Below are positions 466-63,665 of a stretch of 64,000 nucleotides of DNA, in pieces. The stretch is from Sulfuritalea hydrogenivorans sk43H (GTDB lineage: Bacteria > Pseudomonadota > Gammaproteobacteria > Burkholderiales > Rhodocyclaceae). The stretch is from positions 3,410,001-3,474,000 of the forward strand of contig NZ_AP012547.1 in NCBI RefSeq assembly GCF_000828635.1, read 5' to 3'. Made by a program: the position numbers and the translations under genes. Positions within the stretch are counted from its first letter, which is position 1, and each line of letters starts with the position of its first letter. The notes under the pieces are model-generated. The model made no database searches. It saw only the letters and a program-made list of their open reading frames with translations, and was not told where the DNA came from.

Positions 466-489
466 GAAAGTCGGTGCCGGCGACACGCC
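466..489 (-). repeat. dispersed VGAGDTA/SPAPTL repeat, divergent copy
   Basis: The core reads GTCGGTGCCGGCGACACGCC, about 19 of 24 positions like the family consensus. It lies in the divergent gap between the radical SAM gene and the alpha-2-macroglobulin gene, just upstream of a TATAAT at 511-516. Confidence 0.6.
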
Positions 490-516
490 GACGCCCCGCA
501 TCCCGCTGGCTATAAT
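488..516 (+). promoter_or_regulatory. possible promoter of the alpha-2-macroglobulin gene
   Basis: A perfect TATAAT lies at 511-516, 16 bases before the ATG at 532. The -35 position (488-493, CCGACG) is poor and falls in the tail of the dispersed repeat. This is a -10 element with weak support for the rest. Confidence 0.4.
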
Positions 517-531
517 CCCCCGACGTCATTC

Positions 532-3500
532 ATGCGGAATACGACCATGCCCAAGCGCGCCGCAGCCCTGCTTTGCCTCACCCTTTCCTTCGCCGCGGAT
601 GCCGCCTGGGTACAGCAATTCACGCCGCAGGAACTGGTCGACCAGCAGACGCGCGCCACGGTGGTGTTCAGCACCGACATGGTGCCGCTGGGCCGGCCGG
701 ACGCGGCGGCGCCCTTCCGCGTCGATTGCGGCGCGGTGAAGGGCAGCGGCCGCTGGGCCGATCCCCGCACCTGGACGTGGCAACTCGAACGCGCCCTGCT
801 GCCGGGCGAGCGCTGCCAGTTCGAGGTGAAGGCGGATTTCAGGGCGGTCAACGGCGAGGACATCAACGGCAAGACCGGCTATCGCTTCTTCGCGCCGGGA
901 CCGTGGCCGCGCGCCATCCATCCCGCGCCCGGCGGCGGCATCGAGGAGGATCAGGCCTTTGTCATCACGCCGGCCGGACCGGTCAAGGCGGCATCGGTGG
1001 AACAGAACGTCTGGTGCGAGGCCGACGGCGTCGGCAACCGGATTCCGGCGCGCCTGGTGCCCGAGCCGCAGCGCCGGGAAATATTTGCCGCGACGCATCG
1101 CGGCGGCAGGAACGAGATCGTGGTGGCTTGCAGCGAACGCCTGCCGGCCGGTGTGAAGATGAAGCTGGTGTGGGGCAAGGGTGTCGAAGCGGAGAATGGC
1201 GCGAAGTCGACCAAGGAAGAGAGCTTCATCTATCCGGTGCGCGAGCCCTTCCGCGCCACGCTGAGTTGCGAACGCGAGAAGGCCGGCGCGCCCTGCTCGC
1301 CGCTGTCGAACATCACGCTGGAATTCTCGGCTCAGGTCGATGCAACGCTGCGCGGCAAGATGCGCCTGATCACCCCCGAGGGCGAACGCCTGCCGGTCGA
1401 TACCGACAAGAGCGACAGCCGGCGCCAGAACACGGCGCGCAGCTTCGTCTTTGCCCGGCCCTTCGCGCAGAACGCCGAACTGCGCCTGGAACTGCCCGCC
1501 GGCATCAAGGACGAGGCCGGGCGGCCGCTGGCCAACGCGACGAGCTTCCCGCTCAAATTCACCACCGCCACGCTGCCGCCGCTGGCGAAGTTTCCCGGCG
1601 ATTTCGGCATTGTCGAACTCAAGGAAGGCGGCGTGCTGCCGGTCACTTTGCGCAACATCGAAGCGAAGCTCGATTTGCGCGAACGGCGCCTGACCGAGGA
1701 CGCCGAAGTGATTGCCGCGATGCAGGCCATCGTCCGCTTCAACAAGCAGACGAAGAAAGTAAAGCTGCTGCGCGACGGCAAGCCGGAGGACTACGAAGAC
1801 CCCCACTACGCCCGCGAATTGAGCTATCTGGCGCAGCAGCCCGGCGTCGGCAAGCGCGAGCTGCCCAAACCCGGCGGCAGTGCCGAATTCGAAGTGGTCG
1901 GCATTCCGCTGGCGAAGCCCGGTTACCACATCGTCGAAGTCGAAAGCCGGCTGCTCGGCGCGGCGCTGCTCTCCAGCGCCAGGCCGATGTATGTGCGCGC
2001 CGCCGCGCTGGTGACCAACATGGCGGTGCACTTCAAGAGCGGCCGCGACAACGCGCTGGTCTGGGTCACGGCGCTGGACAGCGGCAAGCCGGTGGCGAAC
2101 GCCGAGGTGCGCGTGTCGAGCTGCAAGGGCACGCTGCTCTGGAGCGGCAAAACCGACACGCAGGGCCGGGCGCTGGCGGACCGTGCACTCGCCGAACAGA
2201 ACTGCGACGGCGCCAGCTTCCTGTTCATATCGGCGCGACAGAACGACGACTACAGCTTCGCGCGCAGCGACTGGCACGAGGGCATCGAACCCTGGCGCTT
2301 CGGCGTCAATACCTGGGGCGAGGGCTCCGGCCCGCGCCTGATCCACACCGTGTTCGATCGCACGCTGCTGCGCCCCAGCCAGACCGTGTCGATGAAGCAC
2401 ATCGCGCGCGAACGCGGCAGCCGCGGCATGAGCCTGCCCGATCCGGCGACGCTGCCCGAACGCGCCGTGATCCGCCACGACAGCGGCGCCGAGTACAAGC
2501 TGGCGCTGGTCTGGGACGCCCAGGGCGTGGCCTTGAGCCAGTGGAAGATTCCCGACGCCGCCAAGCGTGGCAGTTATGCGGTGACGCTCGAAGGCGGCAA
2601 GGGCGGCAGGGGCGGTCGCGAGACGGGCGAATTCCGCGTTTCCGACTTCCGCCTGCCGGTGTTCACCGGCAGCGTGCAGGGCGTCACGTCGCGCCATGTC
2701 GCACCGAAAAGCGTGCCGCTGGCGCTGGGCCTGTCCTTCATCAACGGCGGCGCGGCGAAGGCACATCCGGTGCAGGTCTCGGCCACGCTGCGGCCGACCT
2801 GGCCGAGTTGGCCGGGCCACGACGGCTATCGCTTCAGCGTCGATTTCAGCGAGGCCGGGCTCGCCGCCTTCGGCATCGACAACGGCCGCGAGCGCGAACA
2901 GCTGATCCTCGACAAGCGGGAACTGACGCTCGACCGCGCCGGCGCCGGCAAGCTCGATGTGGCGATCGCCAACAAGCCGCGCGGCCCGGCCGAGATCTAC
3001 GCCGAGATGAGCTTCAACGATCCCAACGGCGAGATCCAGACCATTCGCGGCACGGTGCCGCTGTGGCCGGCCGCCGTGGCATTGGGCATGAAGATTCCCG
3101 ACTGGAGCTCGCCCAGCGACAAGGGCCGCGTTGATCTGCTGACGCTCGACCTCGACGGCAAGCCGCTGGCCGGACAGGAACTCAGCGTCACGGCCAAGCG
3201 GCGCATTTCGCATTCGCACCGGCGCCGCATCGTCGGCGGCTTCTATGCCTACGAGAACCGCGAGGAGTTCGCCGACCTCGGCACGGTTTGCAGCGGCAAG
3301 AGCGACGCACGCGGCATCCTGCGCTGCGAGCCGAAGGTGGCCGGCTCCGGCGAAATCTTCCTGCTGGCGGAAACCCGCGACGGGCAGGGCAACGTCACGC
3401 GCAGCGGCGCCAGCTATTGGGCGACCGGCAATGGCGACGATCCGTGGTTCACCGCCGGCAACCAGGACCGCATCGACGTCGTGCCCGAGCAGCGCGGCTA

Positions 3501-6210
3501 CAAGGCCGGCGATACGGCAAGATTCCGTGTGCATACGCCCTTCCGCGACGCCACCGCCTTGATCTCGGTCGAGGCCGGCGGCGTCATCGAGACCTTCGTC
3601 CGCCCGCTGTCGCGTTTCAAGCCGGTGATCGAAATCCCGGTCAAGGGCGAATGGGCGCCCAACGTGTTCGTTTCGGTGCTGGTGGTGCGTGGCCGCGTCG
3701 AGCCGCTCAAGTGGTATTCGCTGTTCCAGTGGGGCTGGCGCGAACCGGCGGCGTGGTTCCGCGAATGGTGGAACCCGCAGCAACCGACGGCGATGGTCGA
3801 CCTGGCCAAGCCGGCCTGGCGCATCGGCCTGGCCGAACTCAACGTCGGCACCGAGAGCCTGCGCCTCAAGGTCGACGTGCTGCCCGAGCGCGCCGACTAC
3901 CGGCCGCGCGAAGAAGCCACGGTGCGCCTCAAAGTGACGGCGCCGGAAGGCAAGCCGCTGCCCGCAGGCACCGAGCTGGCCTTCGCCGCCGTCGATCAGG
4001 CGCTGCTCGAACTGCGACCCAACGAGAGCTGGAAGTTGCTGGAAGCCATGACGCCGCGCCGCGGCTACGAGGTCATCACCTCGACCGCGCAATCGCAAGT
4101 GCTGGGCAAGCGCCACTACGGCCGCAAGGCGGTGCCGCCCGGCGGCGGCGGCGGCCGGGCGCCGGCACGCGAGCTGTTCGACACGCTGCTGAGTTGGCAG
4201 CCGCGCGTGAAAGTCGGCGCTGACGGTACGGCGATGGTGAAGCTGCCGATCAACGATTCGCTTACCGAATTCAAGCTGGTCGGCATCGCCAGCGCCGGCG
4301 CAAGCCTGTTCGGCACCGGCTCGGCCGCCGTGCGCACACGGCAGGATTTGCAACTGATCTCCGGCCTGCCGCCGCTGGTGCGCGAGAAAGATCGCTACCA
4401 GGCGCTCTTGACGGTGAGGAACGGCACGGCAAGGGCGATGACGGTGAATGTCACGGCACGTGCCGGCATGCAGGCGCTGGAAGCAAAGGAAGTGAAACTC
4501 GACGCCGAAGGCGCTGCGGAAATCAACTGGAGCGCGCAGGCGCCCGAGAACGCAACCAGCCTGGCATGGGAATTCGAGGCCAGCGAGAAAACCGACAGTA
4601 ACAAAAACCCGGGCCGCGACCGCCTCAAGATCACCCAGCGCATCGAACCCGCCGTACCCGTCACCGTGCAACAGGCCAGTTTCGCCCGCGTCGACGGCAG
4701 GCTGGAAATGCCCGTCGCCATGCCGCAAGGCGCGCTGCCCGGCCGCGGCGGCATCGAGGTCGGCCTCTCGCCGAAACTGTCGACCCCGCCGCCGGGGCTT
4801 AAGCGCTACTTCGAGGACTACCCGTTCTCCTGCCTCGAACAGAAAGCCTCGATCGCCGTCGGCCTGAAGGACGAAAAGCGCTGGAAGGAAGTCGTCGAAA
4901 GCCTGCCGGCCCTGCTCGACGGCAACGGCCTGGCGCGCTATTTCGCCAGCGAGTCGGCGACCAGCGCCGGCAGCGTCACGCTCACCGCCTATCTGCTCGA
5001 TGTGTCGCAGGCCAGCGGACTGGCCCTGCCCGCCGAGTTGAAGACGCGCATGGAAGACGGCCTCACCGGCTTCGTCGAGGTGCGCTTCAAGGCGCCGGTC
5101 TGGTCGCCGGCGCAGACCGACGCCCAGCTTGCCGCCAAGCTGCTCGCGCTCGAAGCGCTGACGCGTGGCGGCAGAAAACCGGTCAAGGCCGCCGCCGCAC
5201 TCGACGTGGAATTGCTGCGCCTGCCGACTTCGGCGCTGATCGACTGGTACCTGGTGGTCAAGCGCCTCGCCGACCTGCCGCAGCGCGCCGAAAAGCTCGC
5301 CGCCTCCGAGCGTGAGCTGAGGAACCGCCTGTCATACGGCGGCGGGCGCCTGACATTCACCACGGAAAAAGGCGACTACTGGTGGTGGATGATGGTTAGC
5401 GGCGACTCCAATACCTTCCGCCTGATCGAAGCCGTGATGGACGACGCCGGCTGGCGCGACGACCTGCCCAAGCTGCTGCGCGGCGCGCTGGAACGCCAGG
5501 TGCGCGGCCGCTGGTTCACCACCACCGCCAACGCTTGGGCCGCCATCGCGCTCGACCAGTACGGCCGCCGCTTCGAGAAGGAAGCCGTCGCCGGCACCAC
5601 GCGCGGCAGCCTCGGCGCGGCGAGCGCCGAGCATCGCTGGAAGGGCTCCGACGACAAACCGCTGCTGGCGCTGCCCTGGCCAACTGGCGAAGGCAAACTG
5701 GCCGTGACCCACGAAGGCAGCGGCAAACCCTGGGCCAGCATCCAGGCCCTGGCCGCGATCCCGGCCGACGAACCGCGCGCCTTCGGCTACCGCGTCACAA
5801 GACACGTGACGCCGCTGCAGGAAAAGGAACAAGGCAAAGTCAGCCGCGGCGACCTCTGGCGCGTCACGCTCAGCGTCGAGGCCGAACAGGACATGACCTG
5901 GGTCGTCGTCAGTGACCCGATCCCTGCCGGCAGCCGCATCCTCGGCGAAGGCGACGGCCGCGATTCGCGCATCGCGACGATGGACGAAGACCTGCGTTCG
6001 CGCCGCGTCTGGCCCAGTTTCATCGAACGCACCTTCGCCAACTTCCGTGCCTACTACGAAGTCGCCCCGCGCGGCCGCTTCCAGATCGACTACACCCTGC
6101 GCATCAACAACGCCGGCGAGTTTGCCCTGCCGCCGACGCGGGTCGAGGCGATGTATGCGCCGGATGTGTTCGGGGAAGTGCCGAACGGGAAGGTGGTGGT
6201 GGGGAATTGA
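532..6210 (+). CDS. alpha-2-macroglobulin family protein (YfhM-like), periplasmic
   Basis: This 1892-residue protein is a bacterial alpha-2-macroglobulin, a thioester protease trap thought to protect the cell envelope and usually paired with PbpC. A signal peptide is visible (hydrophobic AAALLCLTLSFAADAA; start at 532, or at Met6, position 547). No proper lipobox follows, unlike the E. coli lipoprotein, so it is probably soluble in the periplasm. MG-type beta-domain stretches fill the first two thirds. The thioester motif CLEQ lies at about residues 1434-1437 and is intact. A glycine-rich stretch near residue 1205 (PPGGGGGRAPARELFD) may belong to the flexible part before the thioester domain. 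The partner pbpC lies 4.7 kb downstream, separated by an accessory insert. Confidence 0.93.
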   Translation: MRNTTMPKRAAALLCLTLSFAADAAWVQQFTPQELVDQQTRATVVFSTDMVPLGRPDAAAPFRVDCGAVKGSGRWADPRTWTWQLERALLPGERCQFEVKADFRAVNGEDINGKTGYRFFAPGPWPRAIHPAPGGGIEEDQAFVITPAGPVKAASVEQNVWCEADGVGNRIPARLVPEPQRREIFAATHRGGRNEIVVACSERLPAGVKMKLVWGKGVEAENGAKSTKEESFIYPVREPFRATLSCEREKAGAPCSPLSNITLEFSAQVDATLRGKMRLITPEGERLPVDTDKSDSRRQNTARSFVFARPFAQNAELRLELPAGIKDEAGRPLANATSFPLKFTTATLPPLAKFPGDFGIVELKEGGVLPVTLRNIEAKLDLRERRLTEDAEVIAAMQAIVRFNKQTKKVKLLRDGKPEDYEDPHYARELSYLAQQPGVGKRELPKPGGSAEFEVVGIPLAKPGYHIVEVESRLLGAALLSSARPMYVRAAALVTNMAVHFKSGRDNALVWVTALDSGKPVANAEVRVSSCKGTLLWSGKTDTQGRALADRALAEQNCDGASFLFISARQNDDYSFARSDWHEGIEPWRFGVNTWGEGSGPRLIHTVFDRTLLRPSQTVSMKHIARERGSRGMSLPDPATLPERAVIRHDSGAEYKLALVWDAQGVALSQWKIPDAAKRGSYAVTLEGGKGGRGGRETGEFRVSDFRLPVFTGSVQGVTSRHVAPKSVPLALGLSFINGGAAKAHPVQVSATLRPTWPSWPGHDGYRFSVDFSEAGLAAFGIDNGREREQLILDKRELTLDRAGAGKLDVAIANKPRGPAEIYAEMSFNDPNGEIQTIRGTVPLWPAAVALGMKIPDWSSPSDKGRVDLLTLDLDGKPLAGQELSVTAKRRISHSHRRRIVGGFYAYENREEFADLGTVCSGKSDARGILRCEPKVAGSGEIFLLAETRDGQGNVTRSGASYWATGNGDDPWFTAGNQDRIDVVPEQRGYKAGDTARFRVHTPFRDATALISVEAGGVIETFVRPLSRFKPVIEIPVKGEWAPNVFVSVLVVRGRVEPLKWYSLFQWGWREPAAWFREWWNPQQPTAMVDLAKPAWRIGLAELNVGTESLRLKVDVLPERADYRPREEATVRLKVTAPEGKPLPAGTELAFAAVDQALLELRPNESWKLLEAMTPRRGYEVITSTAQSQVLGKRHYGRKAVPPGGGGGRAPARELFDTLLSWQPRVKVGADGTAMVKLPINDSLTEFKLVGIASAGASLFGTGSAAVRTRQDLQLISGLPPLVREKDRYQALLTVRNGTARAMTVNVTARAGMQALEAKEVKLDAEGAAEINWSAQAPENATSLAWEFEASEKTDSNKNPGRDRLKITQRIEPAVPVTVQQASFARVDGRLEMPVAMPQGALPGRGGIEVGLSPKLSTPPPGLKRYFEDYPFSCLEQKASIAVGLKDEKRWKEVVESLPALLDGNGLARYFASESATSAGSVTLTAYLLDVSQASGLALPAELKTRMEDGLTGFVEVRFKAPVWSPAQTDAQLAAKLLALEALTRGGRKPVKAAAALDVELLRLPTSALIDWYLVVKRLADLPQRAEKLAASERELRNRLSYGGGRLTFTTEKGDYWWWMMVSGDSNTFRLIEAVMDDAGWRDDLPKLLRGALERQVRGRWFTTTANAWAAIALDQYGRRFEKEAVAGTTRGSLGAASAEHRWKGSDDKPLLALPWPTGEGKLAVTHEGSGKPWASIQALAAIPADEPRAFGYRVTRHVTPLQEKEQGKVSRGDLWRVTLSVEAEQDMTWVVVSDPIPAGSRILGEGDGRDSRIATMDEDLRSRRVWPSFIERTFANFRAYYEVAPRGRFQIDYTLRINNAGEFALPPTRVEAMYAPDVFGEVPNGKVVVGN

Positions 6211-6220
6211 ACGCCGTATC

Positions 6221-6244
6221 GCCGTGTCGCCAGCGCCGACTCTT
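6221..6244 (+). repeat. dispersed VGAGDTA/SPAPTL repeat, consensus copy
   Basis: The copy is identical to the family consensus (reverse strand core GTCGGCGCTGGCGACACGGC). It is the outermost part of the left inverted arm, 10 bases after the alpha-2-macroglobulin stop codon. Confidence 0.8.
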
Positions 6245-6292
6245 GGGGTTTCCTTCGAAGGGAAATGCCGGGTCTCGCCCCGGCGGGCGAGA

Positions 6293-9362: not shown

Positions 9363-9453
9363 GGGCGCGTTTCTTTGGGTACTTTCTTGCCGCGCAGCAA
9401 GAAAGTATCTCGCCCGCCGGGGCGAGTCCCGGCATCTCCCATGAGTGCACTGC

Positions 9454-9484: not shown

Positions 9485-9508
9485 AAAAGTCGGCGCCGGC
9501 GACACGGC
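9485..9508 (-). repeat. dispersed VGAGDTA/SPAPTL repeat
   Basis: The core GTCGGCGCCGGCGACACGGC differs from consensus at about two of 24 positions. It marks the outer end of the right inverted arm, mirroring the copy at 6221-6244. Confidence 0.75.
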
Positions 9509-9534
9509 GATTCAGACACACCACGAAGGATGAA

Positions 9535-15819: not shown

Positions 15820-18039
<2,220 letters not shown>

Positions 18040-22300: not shown

Positions 22301-22578
22301 TGCGCTATCTGCGTTCGGCGTCTCAGGCCTTGACGAACGGCGTCGCCAAAGGCCGGTCGCTACCGGTATGAAGGATCACGCTGGTGAAAGTAGGCATGAT
22401 GGGTCTCCGGGTGTCCCGCGTAGACCAATCCCGTTTGCCGACTCTCGTGATGGCAAGACCCAAACCGTGTGGTGATCAGGGCTGCTGAAGTAATGGCAGC
22501 GGCAGTCGAATAGTCGGCGCTGGCGACACGGCGCCGTAGCAAGAAAATCGGTCTTCACACTGCCCGCAACACAAAGAC
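22301..22578. other. gap with gene remnant and dispersed repeat
   Basis: A short minus frame at about 22324-22398 (MPTFTSVILHTGSDRPLATP, then a stop) may be the remnant of another gene but I cannot name it. The rest holds a dispersed repeat at 22509-22532 and no other recognisable feature. Confidence 0.4.
22509..22532 (-). repeat. dispersed VGAGDTA/SPAPTL repeat
   Basis: The core GTCGGCGCTGGCGACACGGC is perfect; one base differs in the flank. It is intergenic, between the flavin reductase remnant and the tRNA-fMet terminator. Confidence 0.8.
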
Positions 22579-31466: not shown

Positions 31467-33004
31467 CGGCGGCGACCGCCCATGATGGAACCGAGCACGC
31501 CGCGCACGATCTCGCGGCCGAGCGAAGAACCGATGGCGCGCACGGTGCTGCTGACGGCCGCTTCGACCACCGTCTGCCGACCGCGCGAACCGGAACGCGC
31601 ACCGCCGCCCAGCATGCCCCCCAGCGCGCCGCCGATGCCGCCCAGAAAGCCGCCACCGGCCGGCTCCGCCGTCCCGGTCGCCGTGCCGCCAGCGCCGACT
31701 GCCGGGGCCGTACCGCTAGCGGTCGCCTGCGCCGCCGCGCCTTGCAGCTTTTCATAGGCCGATTCGCGGTCGAGCAGCTTCTCGTAATGCCCGGCGATCG
31801 GCGAGTCGGCGATGGCGGCACGGCGTTCTTCCCCCGTCAGCGGCCCGATGCGCGAGGCGGGCGGCAGCACCATGCCGCGCTCGACCACGGTCGGCCGGCC
31901 CTGCTCGTCGAGGAAGGACACCAGCGCCTCGCCGACGCCGAGTTCGGTGATCACGGTCGCGGCATCGAAGGCCGGGTTGGCGCGCAGCGTGTCCGCCGCC
32001 GCCTTGACCGCTTTCTGGTCGCGCGGCGTGAAGGCGCGCAGCGCATGCTGGACGCGGTTGCCGAGTTGGCCAAGCACCGCGTCGGGAATGTCGAGCGGGT
32101 TCTGCGTCACGAAATACACGCCGACGCCTTTCGAACGGATCAGGCGCACCACCTGTTCGACCTTCTCCAGCAGGGCCGGAGGCGCATCGCTGAACAGCAG
32201 GTGGGCTTCGTCGAAAAAGAAGGCCAGCTTCGGCTTGGGCAGGTCGCCCGCCTCGGGCAGTTGCTCGAACAATTCGGCCAGCAGCCAGAGCAGGAAGCAG
32301 CCATAGAGCCGCGGCGAGTTCATCAGCTTTTCGGCGGCCAGCACGTTGATCACGCCGCGGCCATCCTGCGCCTGCATCAGGTCCTCGATGTCGAGCATCG
32401 GCTCGCCGAAGAAGCTCGTGCCGCCCTGCTCTTCCAGGGTCAGCAGGCCGCGCTGGATGGCACCAATCGAGGCCGCCGAGACGTTGCCGTATTGGGTCTT
32501 GTACTGCGCCGCGTTCTCGCCGACGTGCTGCACCATGGCGCGCAGATCCTTCAGGTCGAGCAGCAGCAGGCCCTGGTCGTCGGCGACCGAGAACACCACC
32601 TGCAGCACGCCGCCCTGGGTGTCGTTGAGATTGAGCAGGCGCCCCAGCAGCAGCGGGCCCATGTCGGAAATCGTCGCGCGCACGGGATGGCCGCTCTCGC
32701 CGAACACGTCCCAGAACACGATCGGATTCGACTTTGGCTGCCAGTCCTTGATGCCAAGTGCATCGAGGCGCTTTTGCAGCTTTTCCGAAACGGTGCCAGC
32801 GGCACCCAGACCGGACAGGTCGCCCTTGGCATCGGCGAGGAACACCGGCACGCCGGCGTTCGAGAGTTGCTCGGCCATGCGTTGCAGGGTCACCGTCTTG
32901 CCGGTGCCGGTGGCGCCGGTGATCAGGCCGTGGCGGTTGGCGAGCTGCGACAACAGGGTCAGTTCGGTCTCGCCGCTCTTGGCGATGGGCAGGGCTTGGC
33001 TCAT
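31463..33004 (-). CDS. HerA-like ATPase, DUF853 (YjgR family)
   Basis: The product is 513 residues from the ATG at 33004 (the upstream open frame overlaps the divergent gene's leader). The Walker A GATGTGKT (about residue 32) and Walker B-like [12 protein letters not shown] (about 265) define a HerA/FtsK-type P-loop ATPase. The family is YjgR/DUF853, whose role is unsettled although linkage to DNA processing is often proposed. A Gly/Ala-rich linker near residues 430-455 includes VGAGGTA, encoded by a copy of the dispersed repeat. The C-terminus is basic and rich in Gly/Arg (GGRRR). Confidence 0.88.
31680..31703 (+). repeat. dispersed repeat inside the HerA-like ATPase gene
   Basis: About 21 of 24 positions match. 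On the coding strand it reads VGAGGTA in a Gly/Ala linker, which is itself low complexity, so chance similarity cannot be excluded. Confidence 0.5.
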
Positions 33005-37989: not shown

Positions 37990-38582
37990 TCGGTCGCATC
38001 ACCGGAACCCTCATTGAAAAGAATCCGCCCGCCATCACGGTGGATGTGCACGGACTCGGCTACGAAGTCGATGTGCCGATGAGCACTTTCTACAACCTGC
38101 CGGCCAGCGGCGAGAAAGTCTCGCTGCACACGCACCTGATCGTGCGCGAGGACGGCCACTTCCTCTACGGCTTCGCCTCGGAAGCGGAGCGCGCCGCCTT
38201 TCGCCAGTTGCTGAAGATCTCCGGCATCGGCGCGCGCACGGCGCTCGCGGTGCTCTCCGGCATGTCGGTGACGGAACTGGCGCAGGCGGTCACGCTGCAG
38301 GAAGCCGGACGGCTGACCAAGGTGCCGGGCATCGGCAAGAAGACCGCCGAGCGCCTGCTGCTGGAACTGCGCGACCGGCTGCCGAAGACATTGTCGAGCG
38401 GAGGTGCAAGAGTCGGCGCTGGCGACACGGCGACCGATGCCGCCTCCGACATCATGAACGCCCTGCTGGCGCTGGGCTACAACGAACGCGAGGCGCTCGC
38501 GGCCATGAAGGGACTGACTCCCGAGGTTTCCGTCTCCGACGGCATCCGCGCGGCGCTGAAACTGCTGTCTAAGTCGTCGTAG
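37986..38582 (+). CDS. ruvA: Holliday junction branch-migration protein RuvA
   Basis: The 198-residue protein tetramerises on Holliday junctions and loads RuvB. Domain I starts [20 protein letters not shown]; the two helix-hairpin-helix motifs are [19 protein letters not shown] and [19 protein letters not shown]; domain III ([20 protein letters not shown]) contacts RuvB. The linker between domains II and III, about residues 141-149, is encoded by an exact copy of the dispersed repeat and reads ARVGAGDTA. Such a linker tolerates inserts. Confidence 0.97.
38408..38431 (-). repeat. dispersed repeat inside ruvA (exact copy)
   Basis: All 24 positions match the consensus. It is read on the coding strand as RVGAGDTA within the flexible linker of RuvA. 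Confidence 0.85.
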
Positions 38583-44907: not shown

Positions 44908-45648
44908 ATGGGCAACGAATCGCCGATCCTGCCGCCCGCCAACAAGGCCGGCCAGCGCGCTTCCATCGCACTGGCCATCGCGGTGCATCTGCTGCTGGCC
45001 GGCTTCCTGTTCTATGGCGTGCGCTGGCAGACCAAGGCCACCGACGTGGTCGAAGTGGAACTGGTGCGCGCGACTGCCGAGCCTGCCGCCCCCCCGCCGG
45101 TCGCCGTACCGCCAGCGCCGACTGTTGTCGAGCCACCTCCGGCACCGAAGGTGGAACCCGCGCCGCCGCCGCCCAAGCCCGACATCGCCATCAAGGACAA
45201 GGAAAAACCCAAGCCGCCGCCAAAAGTGGAGCCGCCCCGACCGCGCGTCGATCCATTCCAGGAGCAGCTCAAACGCGAGGCCGAACAGCTGACCCAGCGC
45301 AAACAGGCCGACAGCGCGGCGCAGGAGCTCTCGCAGATGAAGGCGGCGCAGGCTGCCGCCTCGCGCAACAAGGCGATTGCCGACTATCTCGGCCGCATCC
45401 GCGGCAAGATTCGCGGCAACATCGTCCTGCCGCCGGAAATCAAGGGGAATCCGGAGGCGCTGTTCGATATCACGCAGTTGCCGAGCGGCGAAGTCATCGC
45501 CGTGCGCCTCAAGCGCTCGTCCGGCAATGCCGCGCTCGACACCGCCATCGAGCGAGCCATCCTCAAATCCAGCCCGCTGCCGCAACCGCCGCAGGCCGAG
45601 TTGTTCTCGCGCCTGATCGAGCTGCGCTATCGACCGCTGGATGATTGA
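44908..45648 (+). CDS. tolA: Tol-Pal protein TolA
   Basis: The 246-residue protein has an N-terminal membrane helix (ASIALAIAVHLLLAGFLFYG), a Pro/Lys-rich then charged linker (PPPAPKVEPAPPPPKP; QEQLKREAEQLTQRKQ), and a TonB_C/TolA-like C-terminal domain (GRIRGKIRGNIVLPPEIKGN). It links the TolQR motor to TolB and Pal. The linker includes [10 protein letters not shown], encoded by a sequence close to the dispersed repeat (45103-45126). Confidence 0.95.
   Translation: MGNESPILPPANKAGQRASIALAIAVHLLLAGFLFYGVRWQTKATDVVEVELVRATAEPAAPPPVAVPPAPTVVEPPPAPKVEPAPPPPKPDIAIKDKEKPKPPPKVEPPRPRVDPFQEQLKREAEQLTQRKQADSAAQELSQMKAAQAAASRNKAIADYLGRIRGKIRGNIVLPPEIKGNPEALFDITQLPSGEVIAVRLKRSSGNAALDTAIERAILKSSPLPQPPQAELFSRLIELRYRPLDD
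45103..45126 (+). repeat. dispersed repeat-like segment inside tolA
   Basis: About 21 of 24 bases match, read as AVPPAPTV in the proline-rich linker. The Pro-rich context makes chance resemblance possible. Confidence 0.45.
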
Positions 45649-48365: not shown

Positions 48366-49033
48366 TGTCTGCCACAAGCGACGCTCATTTGCAAAACTCC
48401 TTGCGCGTCACAGAAATCTTCCATTCCATCCAGGGCGAATCCAGCCGCGTCGGATTGCCCACGGTTTTCGTGCGGCTCACCGGCTGCCCGCTGCGCTGCG
48501 TCTGGTGCGATACCGAGTATGCCTTCAGCGGCGGCGAATCCCTGAGCATTGCCGACATCCTGCAGCGGGTTGCCGGATTCGACTGCAAAACGGTCTGCGT
48601 CACCGGCGGCGAGCCGCTGGCACAGAAGAACTGCCTGCCGCTGCTGTCCGCGCTATGCGATGCGGGCCATTCGGTATCGCTCGAAACCAGCGGCGCGCTC
48701 GACATCGGCGGCATAGATCCGCGCGTGGCGCGCATCGTCGACCTCAAGGCGCCCGGCTCCGGAGAAGAGGCGAAGAACTGCTGGGAGAATATCGGCCTGC
48801 TGACGGCCCATGACGAATTGAAGTTCGTCCTCGCCTCGCGCGAGGACTACGACTGGGCCGTATCGGCGTGCCGCCAGCGCCGACTCTTCGAGCGCTGCCC
48901 GATACTCTTCTCACCCGTGCAGGGGCAACTCGATCCGACGCAGCTCGCGCAGTGGATCCTCGACGACCGCCTGCCGGTGCGCTTCCAGCTGCAATTGCAC
49001 AAGCTGCTGTGGGACAACGCCAAGGGGCGCTGA
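48365..49033 (+). CDS. queE: 7-carboxy-7-deazaguanine synthase QueE
   Basis: The 222-residue radical SAM enzyme makes CDG in the queuosine pathway. It has RVTEIFHSIQGESSRVG, the cluster motif RLTGCPLRCVWCDTEYAF (CxxxCxxC) and CVTGGEPLAQ. It starts at a GTG overlapping the cpoB stop. queC, often next, is absent. Near residues 167-175 the sequence SACRQRRLFERC is encoded by a near-exact dispersed repeat, at a place where relatives have a similar basic stretch. Confidence 0.93.
   Translation: MSATSDAHLQNSLRVTEIFHSIQGESSRVGLPTVFVRLTGCPLRCVWCDTEYAFSGGESLSIADILQRVAGFDCKTVCVTGGEPLAQKNCLPLLSALCDAGHSVSLETSGALDIGGIDPRVARIVDLKAPGSGEEAKNCWENIGLLTAHDELKFVLASREDYDWAVSACRQRRLFERCPILFSPVQGQLDPTQLAQWILDDRLPVRFQLQLHKLLWDNAKGR
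48865..48888 (+). repeat. dispersed repeat inside queE
   Basis: About 22 of 24 bases match the consensus; read as CRQRRLF in frame. It differs from the ruvA copy in strand and frame. Confidence 0.6.
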
Positions 49034-56429: not shown

Positions 56430-56952
56430 TTGGGGCGTCCCAGTCATCGACGACGAGCTTGAAGTCGACATCCTCGCGGTGCGCTTCCAGCACGCGCAAG
56501 AGTCGGCGCTGGCGGAACGCCGACGTATCGCTGATCACCACGCGCCAGCCGTCAACCTCGCCGCTCAACTCCGCACGGGCACCGCGCAGCCAGTCGGCCA
56601 TGGCTTCCAGCGGCAGCGGCGCGCCAAGGACGCGCTGTGCCAGTTGCGGCAGGGTGTCGGCGGTAATCGTCGCCTGGTTCGGCTGCTTCAGCCGCGCGCC
56701 ATCCTTGTCGTGCGTCAGCTCGGCGAGGCCCTGTCCCAGCGGCGACATCAGCAGCACGACATCGCTGCCCGGCGCATGCTCCCAGCGAAAACGCAGATGG
56801 TCCCGGCGTTCGCCCTGACGCAGCGAAATGCGGCCTTCGGCGCTGACGCTCGCGAGCGGCGGGCCGAGGCGGGGCGATGAATCGGCTGGCGGTGCGAGCT
56901 CGGCGCAGGCGCCCATCAACAAGGCGGCAAGGCAAACCAGCCAGTGCTGCAT
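56422..56952 (-). CDS. lolB: outer-membrane lipoprotein assembly factor LolB
   Basis: The product is 176 residues from the ATG at 56952, with lipobox LLMGAC (Cys about residue 15). The short conserved blocks RISLRQGERRDHLRFRWEH and LPLEAMADWLRGARAELSG fit LolB, which inserts lipoproteins into the outer membrane. Near the end [20 protein letters not shown] is partly encoded by a dispersed-repeat copy. It lies between a TPR gene and ispE, as is normal for lolB. Confidence 0.88.
   Translation of the reverse strand: MQHWLVCLAALLMGACAELAPPADSSPRLGPPLASVSAEGRISLRQGERRDHLRFRWEHAPGSDVVLLMSPLGQGLAELTHDKDGARLKQPNQATITADTLPQLAQRVLGAPLPLEAMADWLRGARAELSGEVDGWRVVISDTSAFRQRRLLRVLEAHREDVDFKLVVDDWDAPNE
56498..56521 (-). 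repeat. dispersed repeat inside lolB, partial copy
   Basis: The first 17 bases match the consensus exactly (AAGAGTCGGCGCTGGCG); the rest diverges. On the coding strand it is read FRQRRLL. Confidence 0.55.
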
Positions 56953-62301: not shown

Positions 62302-63665
62302 CAGTGCCTCGCTGCCCCGGAGGGCTTCTTCGGTTTGCTTTGTTCGATGGGCTGCGGATCGAGCACGGCGATGGAGAGCGTGTCGTCCTTGAAGTATTTC
62401 TTCGCCACGGCCTGCACCTCTTCCGCCGTAACGCTTTTCACTTTTTCGAGCAGGGTGTCGATGTCGCGCCATGACTGCCCCGCCGCCTCGGCACCGCCGA
62501 TTTCCATGGCCTGCGCCATCAGCGAATCGCGTTTATATATCTGGGCGGCAATGGACTGGGTCTTGACCCGGGCGAGCTCCTCGGCCGAGACGCCCTCGTC
62601 CTGAATGCGCTTGATTTCGCCGCGCAGGGCCGCTTCGAGATCGGCAATGGTCTTGCCTTCGGCCGGCTGTCCGTCGAGGACGAAGTTCGTCTCGCCGCGC
62701 AGCGTCGGATCGTAGCCGGCGCCGGCGGACTGGGCGACGCGACTGCCGCGCACCAGGTTTTTGGCAAAGCGCGAAGCCTCGTGCCCATCGAGCACCGACG
62801 CCAGCACATCCAGTGCATACGGGTCGCGATCCTTCTGCACATCGCGCAACTTTGGGGCCTTCCATGCCATGGCAAGGTAAGGCAGCTTGGCGGGTGCCTT
62901 GACGCTTACCCGGCGGATGCCCGCCTGCTCGGGTTCGTTCTGCGGCTTGCGTTCCGGCAGGGCGTGCGGCTTGTGCGGGCCATAGTATTTCTGTGCCAGG
63001 CGAAATACCTCGCGGTGATCGACGTCGCCCACCACCACCACGTAGGCGTTGTTCGGCGCGTACCACTGCCGATACCAGTCGCGCGCGTCCTGCCAGGTCA
63101 TGTGTTCGAGATCGTCCATCCAGCCGATGATCGGGCGCCGATAGGGATGCACCTGGAAGATCGTCGAATTCAAGGCTTCATGCACCAGGGCATGCGGATT
63201 GTCGTCGGTGCGCAACCGCCGCTCTTCCATCACCACCTTGATCTCGGCGGCGAACTCCTTGGCATCGAGAGTCAGGTTCGCCATGCGGTCCGCTTCGAGC
63301 TTCATCATGTCAGGCAGTGCGGCCTTCGGCACGATCTGGAAATACGCCGTGTAGTCGCGGCTGGTGAAGGCGTTGTCACGGCCACCGGCTTCGGCCACGC
63401 GCTTGTTGAATTCGCCCGGACGCAGGTTCTTCGTACCCTTGAACATCAGGTGCTCCAGCACATGGGCGACACCCGAGGTGCCATCCTTTTCGTCCATGCT
63501 GCCGGCGCGATACCAGACCATATGCACCGCCGTCGGCGCCCGGCGGTCTTCCTTGACGATGACGCGCAAGCCGTTGGCGAGCTTCGTTTCGAACGGGTTG
63601 GCAAGAGTCGGCGCTGGCGACACGGCGAAAGCCAGCACAACTGAGGCGGCGAGCAATGGTTTCAT
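62301..63665 (-). CDS. M16 family zinc peptidase, catalytic subunit, periplasmic
   Basis: The 454-residue protein has the zinc motif HVLEH (about residues 68-72, in SGVAHVLEHLMFKGTKNL) with a distal Glu in VMEERRLRTDDN, so it is an active pitrilysin-type peptidase. The signal peptide reads [20 protein letters not shown] with cleavage after LA near residue 22. That AVSPAPTL is encoded by an exact dispersed repeat. It pairs with the inactive M16 gene directly downstream. Confidence 0.93.
   Translation of the reverse strand: MKPLLAASVVLAFAVSPAPTLANPFETKLANGLRVIVKEDRRAPTAVHMVWYRAGSMDEKDGTSGVAHVLEHLMFKGTKNLRPGEFNKRVAEAGGRDNAFTSRDYTAYFQIVPKAALPDMMKLEADRMANLTLDAKEFAAEIKVVMEERRLRTDDNPHALVHEALNSTIFQVHPYRRPIIGWMDDLEHMTWQDARDWYRQWYAPNNAYVVVVGDVDHREVFRLAQKYYGPHKPHALPERKPQNEPEQAGIRRVSVKAPAKLPYLAMAWKAPKLRDVQKDRDPYALDVLASVLDGHEASRFAKNLVRGSRVAQSAGAGYDPTLRGETNFVLDGQPAEGKTIADLEAALRGEIKRIQDEGVSAEELARVKTQSIAAQIYKRDSLMAQAMEIGGAEAAGQSWRDIDTLLEKVKSVTAEEVQAVAKKYFKDDTLSIAVLDPQPIEQSKPKKPSGAARH
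63603..63626 (-). repeat. dispersed repeat inside the M16 signal peptide (exact copy)
   Basis: All 24 bases match the consensus. In the gene (minus) it encodes AVSPAPTL at the end of the hydrophobic core and near the cleavage site. Confidence 0.85.

Follow-up and report, generated by a model that had tools for sequence, protein, structure and literature searches.

A dispersed genomic word in Sulfuritalea hydrogenivorans and its relatives, a probable third family of DNA uptake sequences in Rhodocyclaceae

A word of 24–26 bases (RARAGTCGGCGCYGGCGNNACGGCGA in S. hydrogenivorans) is present in ~700 copies in the chromosome of S. hydrogenivorans sk43H, with no strand bias. Judged from the sequence, this repeat quite probably marks the genome in the way uptake sequences do and would be a third family of them. 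Five observations together lead to this reading: letters were replaced in place, the word is maintained at the DNA level, its dialects follow clades, it decays in some species, and it is scarce in the few foreign-looking stretches sampled. Beyond the one species, it appears probable that the Rhodocyclaceae hold a third DNA-uptake-sequence family, in which AAGTC and ACGGC stand 12 bases apart and the middle varies as dialects. To our knowledge, uptake tags of such a kind have been described in just two bacterial families, both different from this one.

The window is the whole stretch of 64,000 bases that was analysed (G000:C1:3410001-3474000; G000 is the S. hydrogenivorans genome, one contig of 3,802,648 bases, 3.80 Mb). 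The 20-base core GTCGGCGCTGGCGACACGGC matched 12 times in the window at ≤3 mismatches, compared to a mean of 0.06 and a maximum of 1 in 100 dinucleotide shuffles. The ten copies listed in the earlier note on this DNA were all recovered where it had placed them, and two more had been overlooked (cores at 4213–4232 and 31805–31824, both on the plus strand). Three copies were exact across 24 bases, as the note had said (6221, 38408 and 63603), and the one at 22513 was exact only over the 20-mer. The copies are as follows:

466–491, plus strand: intergenic copy with 3 mismatches, ahead of the alpha-2-macroglobulin gene 532–6210
4209–4234, plus strand: copy in the alpha-2-macroglobulin gene, sense, VGADGTA; core 4213–4232
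6219–6244, minus strand: intergenic copy, exact, shortly past the stop at 6210
9485–9510, plus strand: intergenic copy with 1 mismatch
22509–22534, plus strand: intergenic copy, exact across 20 bases, preceded by AATA
31678–31703, minus strand: copy in the HerA-like gene, sense, AVGAGGTA
31801–31826, plus strand: second copy in the HerA-like gene, antisense; core 31805–31824; also in G007
38408–38433, plus strand: the flagged copy, in ruvA, exact, sense, VGAGDTA
45101–45126, minus strand: copy in the TolA-like gene 44908–45648, antisense
48863–48888, minus strand: copy in the radical-SAM (QueE-like) gene, antisense, CRQRRL
56498–56523, plus strand: copy in lolB, antisense, FRQRRL
63603–63628, plus strand: copy at the M16 peptidase N-terminus, exact, antisense, AVSPAPTL

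Pfam backed the RuvA, LolB, M16, HerA-like, radical-SAM and alpha-2-macroglobulin hosts; the name QueE comes from the earlier note, and the name TolA-like for 44908–45648 was given only from a tolB neighbour and a Pro/Ala-rich sequence. The lolB copy had been given as CRQRRL, which is corrected here to FRQRRL. All genic copies had also been placed in linkers, signal peptides or loops. This holds for the ruvA copy, which lies between the HHH and RuvA_C domains, and for the M16 copy at the N-terminus, but the copies in LolB, HerA, the alpha-2-macroglobulin and the radical-SAM protein lie inside Pfam domain limits. A second, rarer repeat, GCCGGGGCGAGACCCGGCAT, adjoins two of the window's word copies (6265–6281 on the minus strand and 9419–9435 on the plus strand); 444 kb of G000 contained 4 copies of it and 0 of its reversed control.

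In the whole genome of G000, the core was found in 263 + 248 copies at ≤2 mismatches, and the reversed-pattern control gave 0. With positions 14 and 15 left free (GTCGGCGCTGGCGNNACGGC), there were 351 copies on the plus and 352 on the minus strand, and the control gave 4 + 6. The copy number is ~700 genome-wide, and the repeat is far from what chance would yield. A profile built from 87 copies read RARA, then GTCGGCGC(T/C)GGCG, two loose bases (the first R, the second C, T or G), ACGGCG and a preferred A; the flanks outside the motif were background. In 464 kb of G000, the counts at 0, 1, 2 and 3 mismatches were 37, 37, 12 and 10, compared to 0, 0, 0 and 3 for the reversed word. The counts peak at 0–1 mismatches, and the copies are therefore held near the consensus.

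The distribution along the chromosome was examined in 444 contiguous kb of G000, with 53 copies on the plus and 52 on the minus strand. The coefficient of variation of the spacing was 0.86, within the simulated range of 0.82–1.19, i.e. random-like, and there was no sign in this stretch of spacing more even than random. We used our own codon-based gene finder on the 444 kb and on 18 stretches of 20 kb from G000. The majority of the 161 copies at ≤2 mismatches were genic (114), 46 were intergenic and 1 lay on an edge. About 90% of the sampled DNA was called coding; intergenic copies were ~3x over-represented, yet the majority was genic. All six reading frames were in use, unequally, with 47 copies in sense as VGAGDTA, 33 in antisense as AVSPAPT and 16, 9, 5 and 4 in the others. 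The claim of a dispersed DNA-level repeat that is tolerated within genes was borne out by this use of all six frames. As required of the uptake-sequence class, there are hundreds of near-identical copies on both strands, in genes and between them.

The centre of the repeat had been described as nearly palindromic, but the two bases that would close a hairpin are among the most variable, and this is not a feature of the family. Inverted pairs of uptake sequences act as terminators. Among the 105 copies in 444 kb, one perfect hairpin was found and a second facing pair stood 90 bases apart. The hairpin lies near G000:C1 3611777 (L306 ~17777–17826) and consists of two facing copies with a perfect stem and a TTCC loop. 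CTTGCG is a change common to both of its copies, which looks like correction of one by the other.

The genic copies are conserved at fixed positions for the DNA sequence itself. In 165 orthologous pairs with the word in both members (G010, G016 and G025 excluded as subjects and G010 as query), 18 of the 22 columns were 0.87–1.00 identical, compared to 0.47–0.85 in the flanks. The four less conserved columns were the dialect column (0.64), another at 0.78 and the two free ones (0.62 and 0.56). At third codon positions, the identity over all 22 columns was 0.861 in the 92 word-bearing pairs with a clear frame, against 0.657 in the flanks. Regardless of word presence (187 of the 312 comparisons described below, 20 columns), it was 0.767 against 0.626. 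An earlier third-codon figure of 0.929 was set aside, as it was based on 16 hand-picked conserved columns. Against the decayed genomes G016 and G025 (35 pairs), codon positions 1 and 2 showed no excess in the motif (0.68 and 0.70, with 0.70 and 0.75 in the flanks), and third positions were at 0.68 in the motif and 0.53 in the flanks.

At comparable sites, the word arose through the replacement of letters in place. The queries were 151 copies taken from eight genomes; compared with one another and with G016, they gave 312 site-spanning comparisons at 55 query sites; the comparisons are redundant, as the same site is viewed from several genomes. The origin comparison covers window copies other than those at 4213, 6221, 9489 and 22513, which had no orthologous stretch. 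The word was present in 234 comparisons and partial or absent in 78 (33 query sites). Over 52 columns, 42 of these 78 had the same length, 21 were shorter by 3–19 bases and 15 were longer; none was shorter by ≥20 bases. Most of the 36 non-zero length differences fell in two genes, the HerA-like and the TolA-like one, within linkers rich in repeats. Filled and empty site pairs, as expected of insertion, were not seen among the 78 comparisons.

Gain or loss was clearest at two sites. At window position 31804, the word was found in G000 and G007, and seven other genus genomes had a different sequence of equal length. At the site L198:5385 (with L201:16118), G007 and G017 had the word and six others had 10 or 11 mismatches, with a net length change of 0. 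In ruvA, the word was at the same place in 13 of 14 readable rows (14 of 26 rows were counted, as 12 minus-strand loci were excluded), and G016 had another sequence. The ruvA word was free of indels; G027 and G015 carry one additional codon directly before it.

The letters of the word change in concert within a clade. The exact T form AGTTGGCGCTGGCGNNACGG (AGTTGG) was found 222 times in G001, 249 times in G015 and 275 times in G027, compared to 0–6 times each in the remaining 28 genus genomes. The exact C form was found 28, 36 and 30 times in these three genomes, respectively, and 343 times in G000. In 100 kb of G027, 14 of the 16 copies found had AGTT. In a ruvA/ruvB tree of 24 genomes, G001, G015 and G027 formed one clade with a support of 100/99; two genomes were omitted from this tree (gene start not found), the ruvA word copy was part of the alignment, the backbone was poorly resolved and the branch of G010 was aberrant. 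At all ten G027 sites with a word-bearing orthologue, G027 had T and the orthologues had C, or A three times in G010 (one orthologue letter was unreadable). G010 itself was dropped as a clean dialect, since more sequence revealed a mixture; it retains 146 exact C-form copies. The concerted change in a clade around a constant inner part is what is expected of uptake-sequence dialects.

Copies decay in place in the two genomes examined, G025 and G016. Three genomes were poor in the exact C form, with 4 copies in G016, 35 in G021 and 50 in G025; they fall apart on the ruvA/ruvB tree, with mixed support. G016 had 67 copies at ≤2 mismatches (control: 8), and 223 kb of it held a single good copy, partly N. 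In 220 kb of G025, 2, 3, 5, 7 and 10 copies were found at 0–4 mismatches (control: 0, 0, 0, 0 and 2), a slope that runs opposite to that of G000. The loss of the pilin operon or of ComEC was rejected as a cause of decay, as G016 and G025 still encode ComEC as well as homologues of PilE, FimT, PilW and PilX.

The word was present in each of the 30 genus relatives searched, with 67–775 copies at ≤2 mismatches. An exact-match search of 84,980 species genomes matched at least 120 stretches. Among the matches listed, most titles were Sulfuritalea, Rhodocyclaceae, Rhodocyclales, uncultured beta proteobacterium or Betaproteobacteria bacterium, and Propionivibrio dicarboxylicus, Proteobacteria bacterium and Pseudomonas syringae were titles of one match each. 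The last of these, NZ_WKEQ01000014.1 (L116), has the long word once in exact form and is the odd one among the Rhodocyclaceae-type titles listed. Plasmid records matched only through ruvA/ruvB homology. No report on uptake sequences in Rhodocyclaceae or Rhodocyclales and none on the word GTCGGCGCTGGCG was found in the open literature.

We surveyed the family with 61 genomes, two from the own genus and one each from 59 other genera. Six of the other genera were clearly over the control (G061 733, G091 707, G099 263, G072 212, G076 43 and G098 32) and two weakly (G109 23 vs 1; G094 16 vs 2). The G098 copies listed mostly read GTCGACGC; G072 copies mostly end in ACGGCA, and G061 reads GTCGGTG in 7 of the 11 copies shown. 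In G063, the G000-type word was not above background in this survey. The form in this genus is AAAGTCAGTC.CNNCRRCACGGCG (AAAGTCAGTC..ACGGCG) with identical spacing, at 17–18 copies per 100 kb; counted genome-wide by the spaced pattern alone, G063 had 485 copies against 11 in the control.

The spaced pattern RAGTC-N12-ACGGCR was well over its reversed control in G000 (507), G061 (725), G091 (639), G063 (485), G072 (184), G099 (138), G076 (119) and G098 (111). AAGTC-N12-ACGGC is thus enriched in 8 of the 60 family genera sampled, with one genome per genus. In the single genomes of the other 52 genera, no enrichment of RAGTC-N12-ACGGCR was found, with counts at or near the control, and there was none in single genomes of 18 further families in the same order, where G047 has four word-like copies. 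Several copies sat on single contigs of near-background genomes (G109:C104, G109:C66 and G047:C29), perhaps transferred or misbinned. The genus G034 has a different, REP-like repeat around CAGCGATGCCCAAC, with facing pairs at all three places seen (L347 2907–2964, L348 16685–16779 and L350 12799–12882).

The copy number in G000 climbed with GC content (80 bins of 10 kb, Spearman 0.50). Six bins of <58% GC, from three regions, held 1 copy in total, compared to means of 1.5–3.5 per bin in the other GC classes. One of these regions has no copy over 20 kb and encodes the conjugative-element proteins TraN and TraU along with McrBC, HipA and a macro domain protein of PARG-like type (genes at L159 5049–18218; 7 of the region's 12 long frames were scanned), and another low-GC region is a polysaccharide-type gene cluster. 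A GC-rich word may be rarer in such DNA for compositional reasons, so the scarcity is support and not proof. At least 120 stretches of IMG/VR contigs carried the word, which therefore also occurs in virus-labelled DNA; host flanks are conceivable. On one virus-labelled contig (L416 885–2238), the exact word stands five times, and four of these copies follow one another at intervals of 316 bases, like a tandemly repeated gene segment.

Of the competence genes, ComEC was found in 30 of the 31 genus genomes, among them G016 with hardly any word left, and also in 10 of the 14 control genomes. An operon of G000 encodes a PilE-type pilin above the Pfam ComP_DUS cut-off, FimT (GspH), PilW and a PilX-like protein below the cut-off, followed by a frame that we take to be PilY1-like. 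The nearest sequences of solved structure were geopilins and major pilins. ComP_DUS, to which the Neisseria receptor belongs, was found in 56 of the 61 family genomes, word-bearing or not, and this Pfam family was ruled out as a receptor marker. It is too widespread, and the operon is therefore compatible with a receptor but not evidence for one. G016 retains the PilE-FimT-PilW-PilX cluster despite the near-loss of the word.

If the word is an uptake sequence, a DNA receptor on the surface of the type IV pilus would prefer word-bearing fragments. A candidate is a minor pilin, e.g. the PilE/ComP-like protein or FimT of the pilin operon. Cells would take up and recombine the DNA of their kin, and word-bearing alleles would spread through more frequent uptake. 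A shift in the taste of the receptor would let the copies drift toward a new dialect, and the loss of specific uptake would let them decay. Several points speak against this reading. ComP_DUS and ComEC do not discriminate, G016 keeps the machinery, species with the T dialect keep 28–36 C-form copies, the density is lower than in Neisseriaceae, only one pair among 105 copies forms a hairpin and G010 is a mixture.

Neisseria DUS contain GCCGT, are mostly genic and are scarce in foreign DNA, and the receptor in Neisseriaceae is ComP. The reverse complement of the present word has CGCCGT..., a likeness short enough for chance. Neisseriaceae DUS come in eight dialects, which track phylogeny and keep a constant core, 5'-CTG-3', with 2,245–3,603 copies in four genomes (PMC3630211). 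They are roughly 9–12 bases long (PMC12616744), and their distribution served to find conjugative elements (PMC7371117). The Rhodocyclaceae word is alike in its very many copies per genome and in dialects that go with phylogeny while a core stays constant. It differs in its length of 24–26 bases, in which 12 bases separate two constant parts, its GC-richness, its lower density (1 per 4–5 kb) and its family. It is not a short word with a CTG core, and CTG is missing from the word's strand in most G063 copies. Pasteurellaceae USS have two types, a constant core GCGG and an extended 17-position motif around a 9-mer (PMC12616744). Again, a genome-wide word, a constant core and an extended motif are shared, but the sequence is unrelated and USS occur in Gammaproteobacteria. 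HIP1 of cyanobacteria is an 8-base palindrome with a high copy number within genes; it is likewise a short word with many genic copies, but the Rhodocyclaceae word is longer and directional and has dialects.

As the main alternative, the copies could be sites of an intracellular DNA-binding protein that has several hundred targets, e.g. for chromosome organisation, segregation or the control of recombination, with dialects that track changes of the protein. The sharp motif edges and the two free positions resemble a protein site, and conservation at the DNA level and at fixed places fits as well. This explanation is nevertheless unlikely: there was no strand bias, the spacing was near-random and no KOPS- or Chi-like polarity was seen in the 444 kb, 114 of 161 copies lie within genes and none lies in the sampled conjugative element. 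The near-complete loss in G016 and the decay in G025 also speak against it, and concerted switching would need an added driver. We know of no mechanism by which per-site selection alone would switch ~250 sites together.

The earlier note had favoured a nearly palindromic element, mobile or gene-converted, with in-frame entry into genes, comparable to Rickettsia palindromic elements. The latter are inserts of ~100–150 bases that are tolerated in coding frames. A dispersed repeat that is also genic and occurs in all frames would agree with this, and so much of the reading stood. Entry by insertion did not survive the orthologue alignments and is very unlikely: footprints were missing (42 of 78 comparisons of equal length, none short by ≥20 bases), clearly alignable sites show an exchange of letters for those of the word with no change in length, positions are fixed between orthologues, letters change in concert and the variable positions abolish the palindrome. 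At the sites compared, orthologues with and without the word did not differ by an insert, as those of an insertion-type palindromic repeat would. That a Y1 (RAYT) transposase moves the word as a REP-like repeat is extremely improbable. Y1_Tnp genes do occur in 26 of the 31 genus genomes, but none was found in G018 (99% complete, 525 copies) or in G006, G011 and G001 (83–90% complete), and with 114 of 161 copies genic and no insertion footprints, the word is neither an extragenic palindrome nor accompanied by the transposase in each carrier. The word is GC-rich, as chance in a GC-rich genome would have it, but the shuffles (0.06), the reversed controls at zero, the six different peptide frames and the 46 intergenic copies of 161 leave chance or a conserved peptide next to no probability.

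An uptake sequence in Rhodocyclaceae would be a third lineage, represented mostly by metagenome-assembled genomes, and would open the long-standing question of how such words come to evolve to comparative tests: a single genus contains species whose set is full, species that have switched dialect and species whose set has decayed. If the reading is true, gains, dialect switches and losses can be traced inside this genus. The word would then be a signal of sexual isolation in free-living bacteria in which no discrimination of self-DNA had been recognised previously, and it would make it possible to predict natural transformability among them, and the donors whose DNA they admit.
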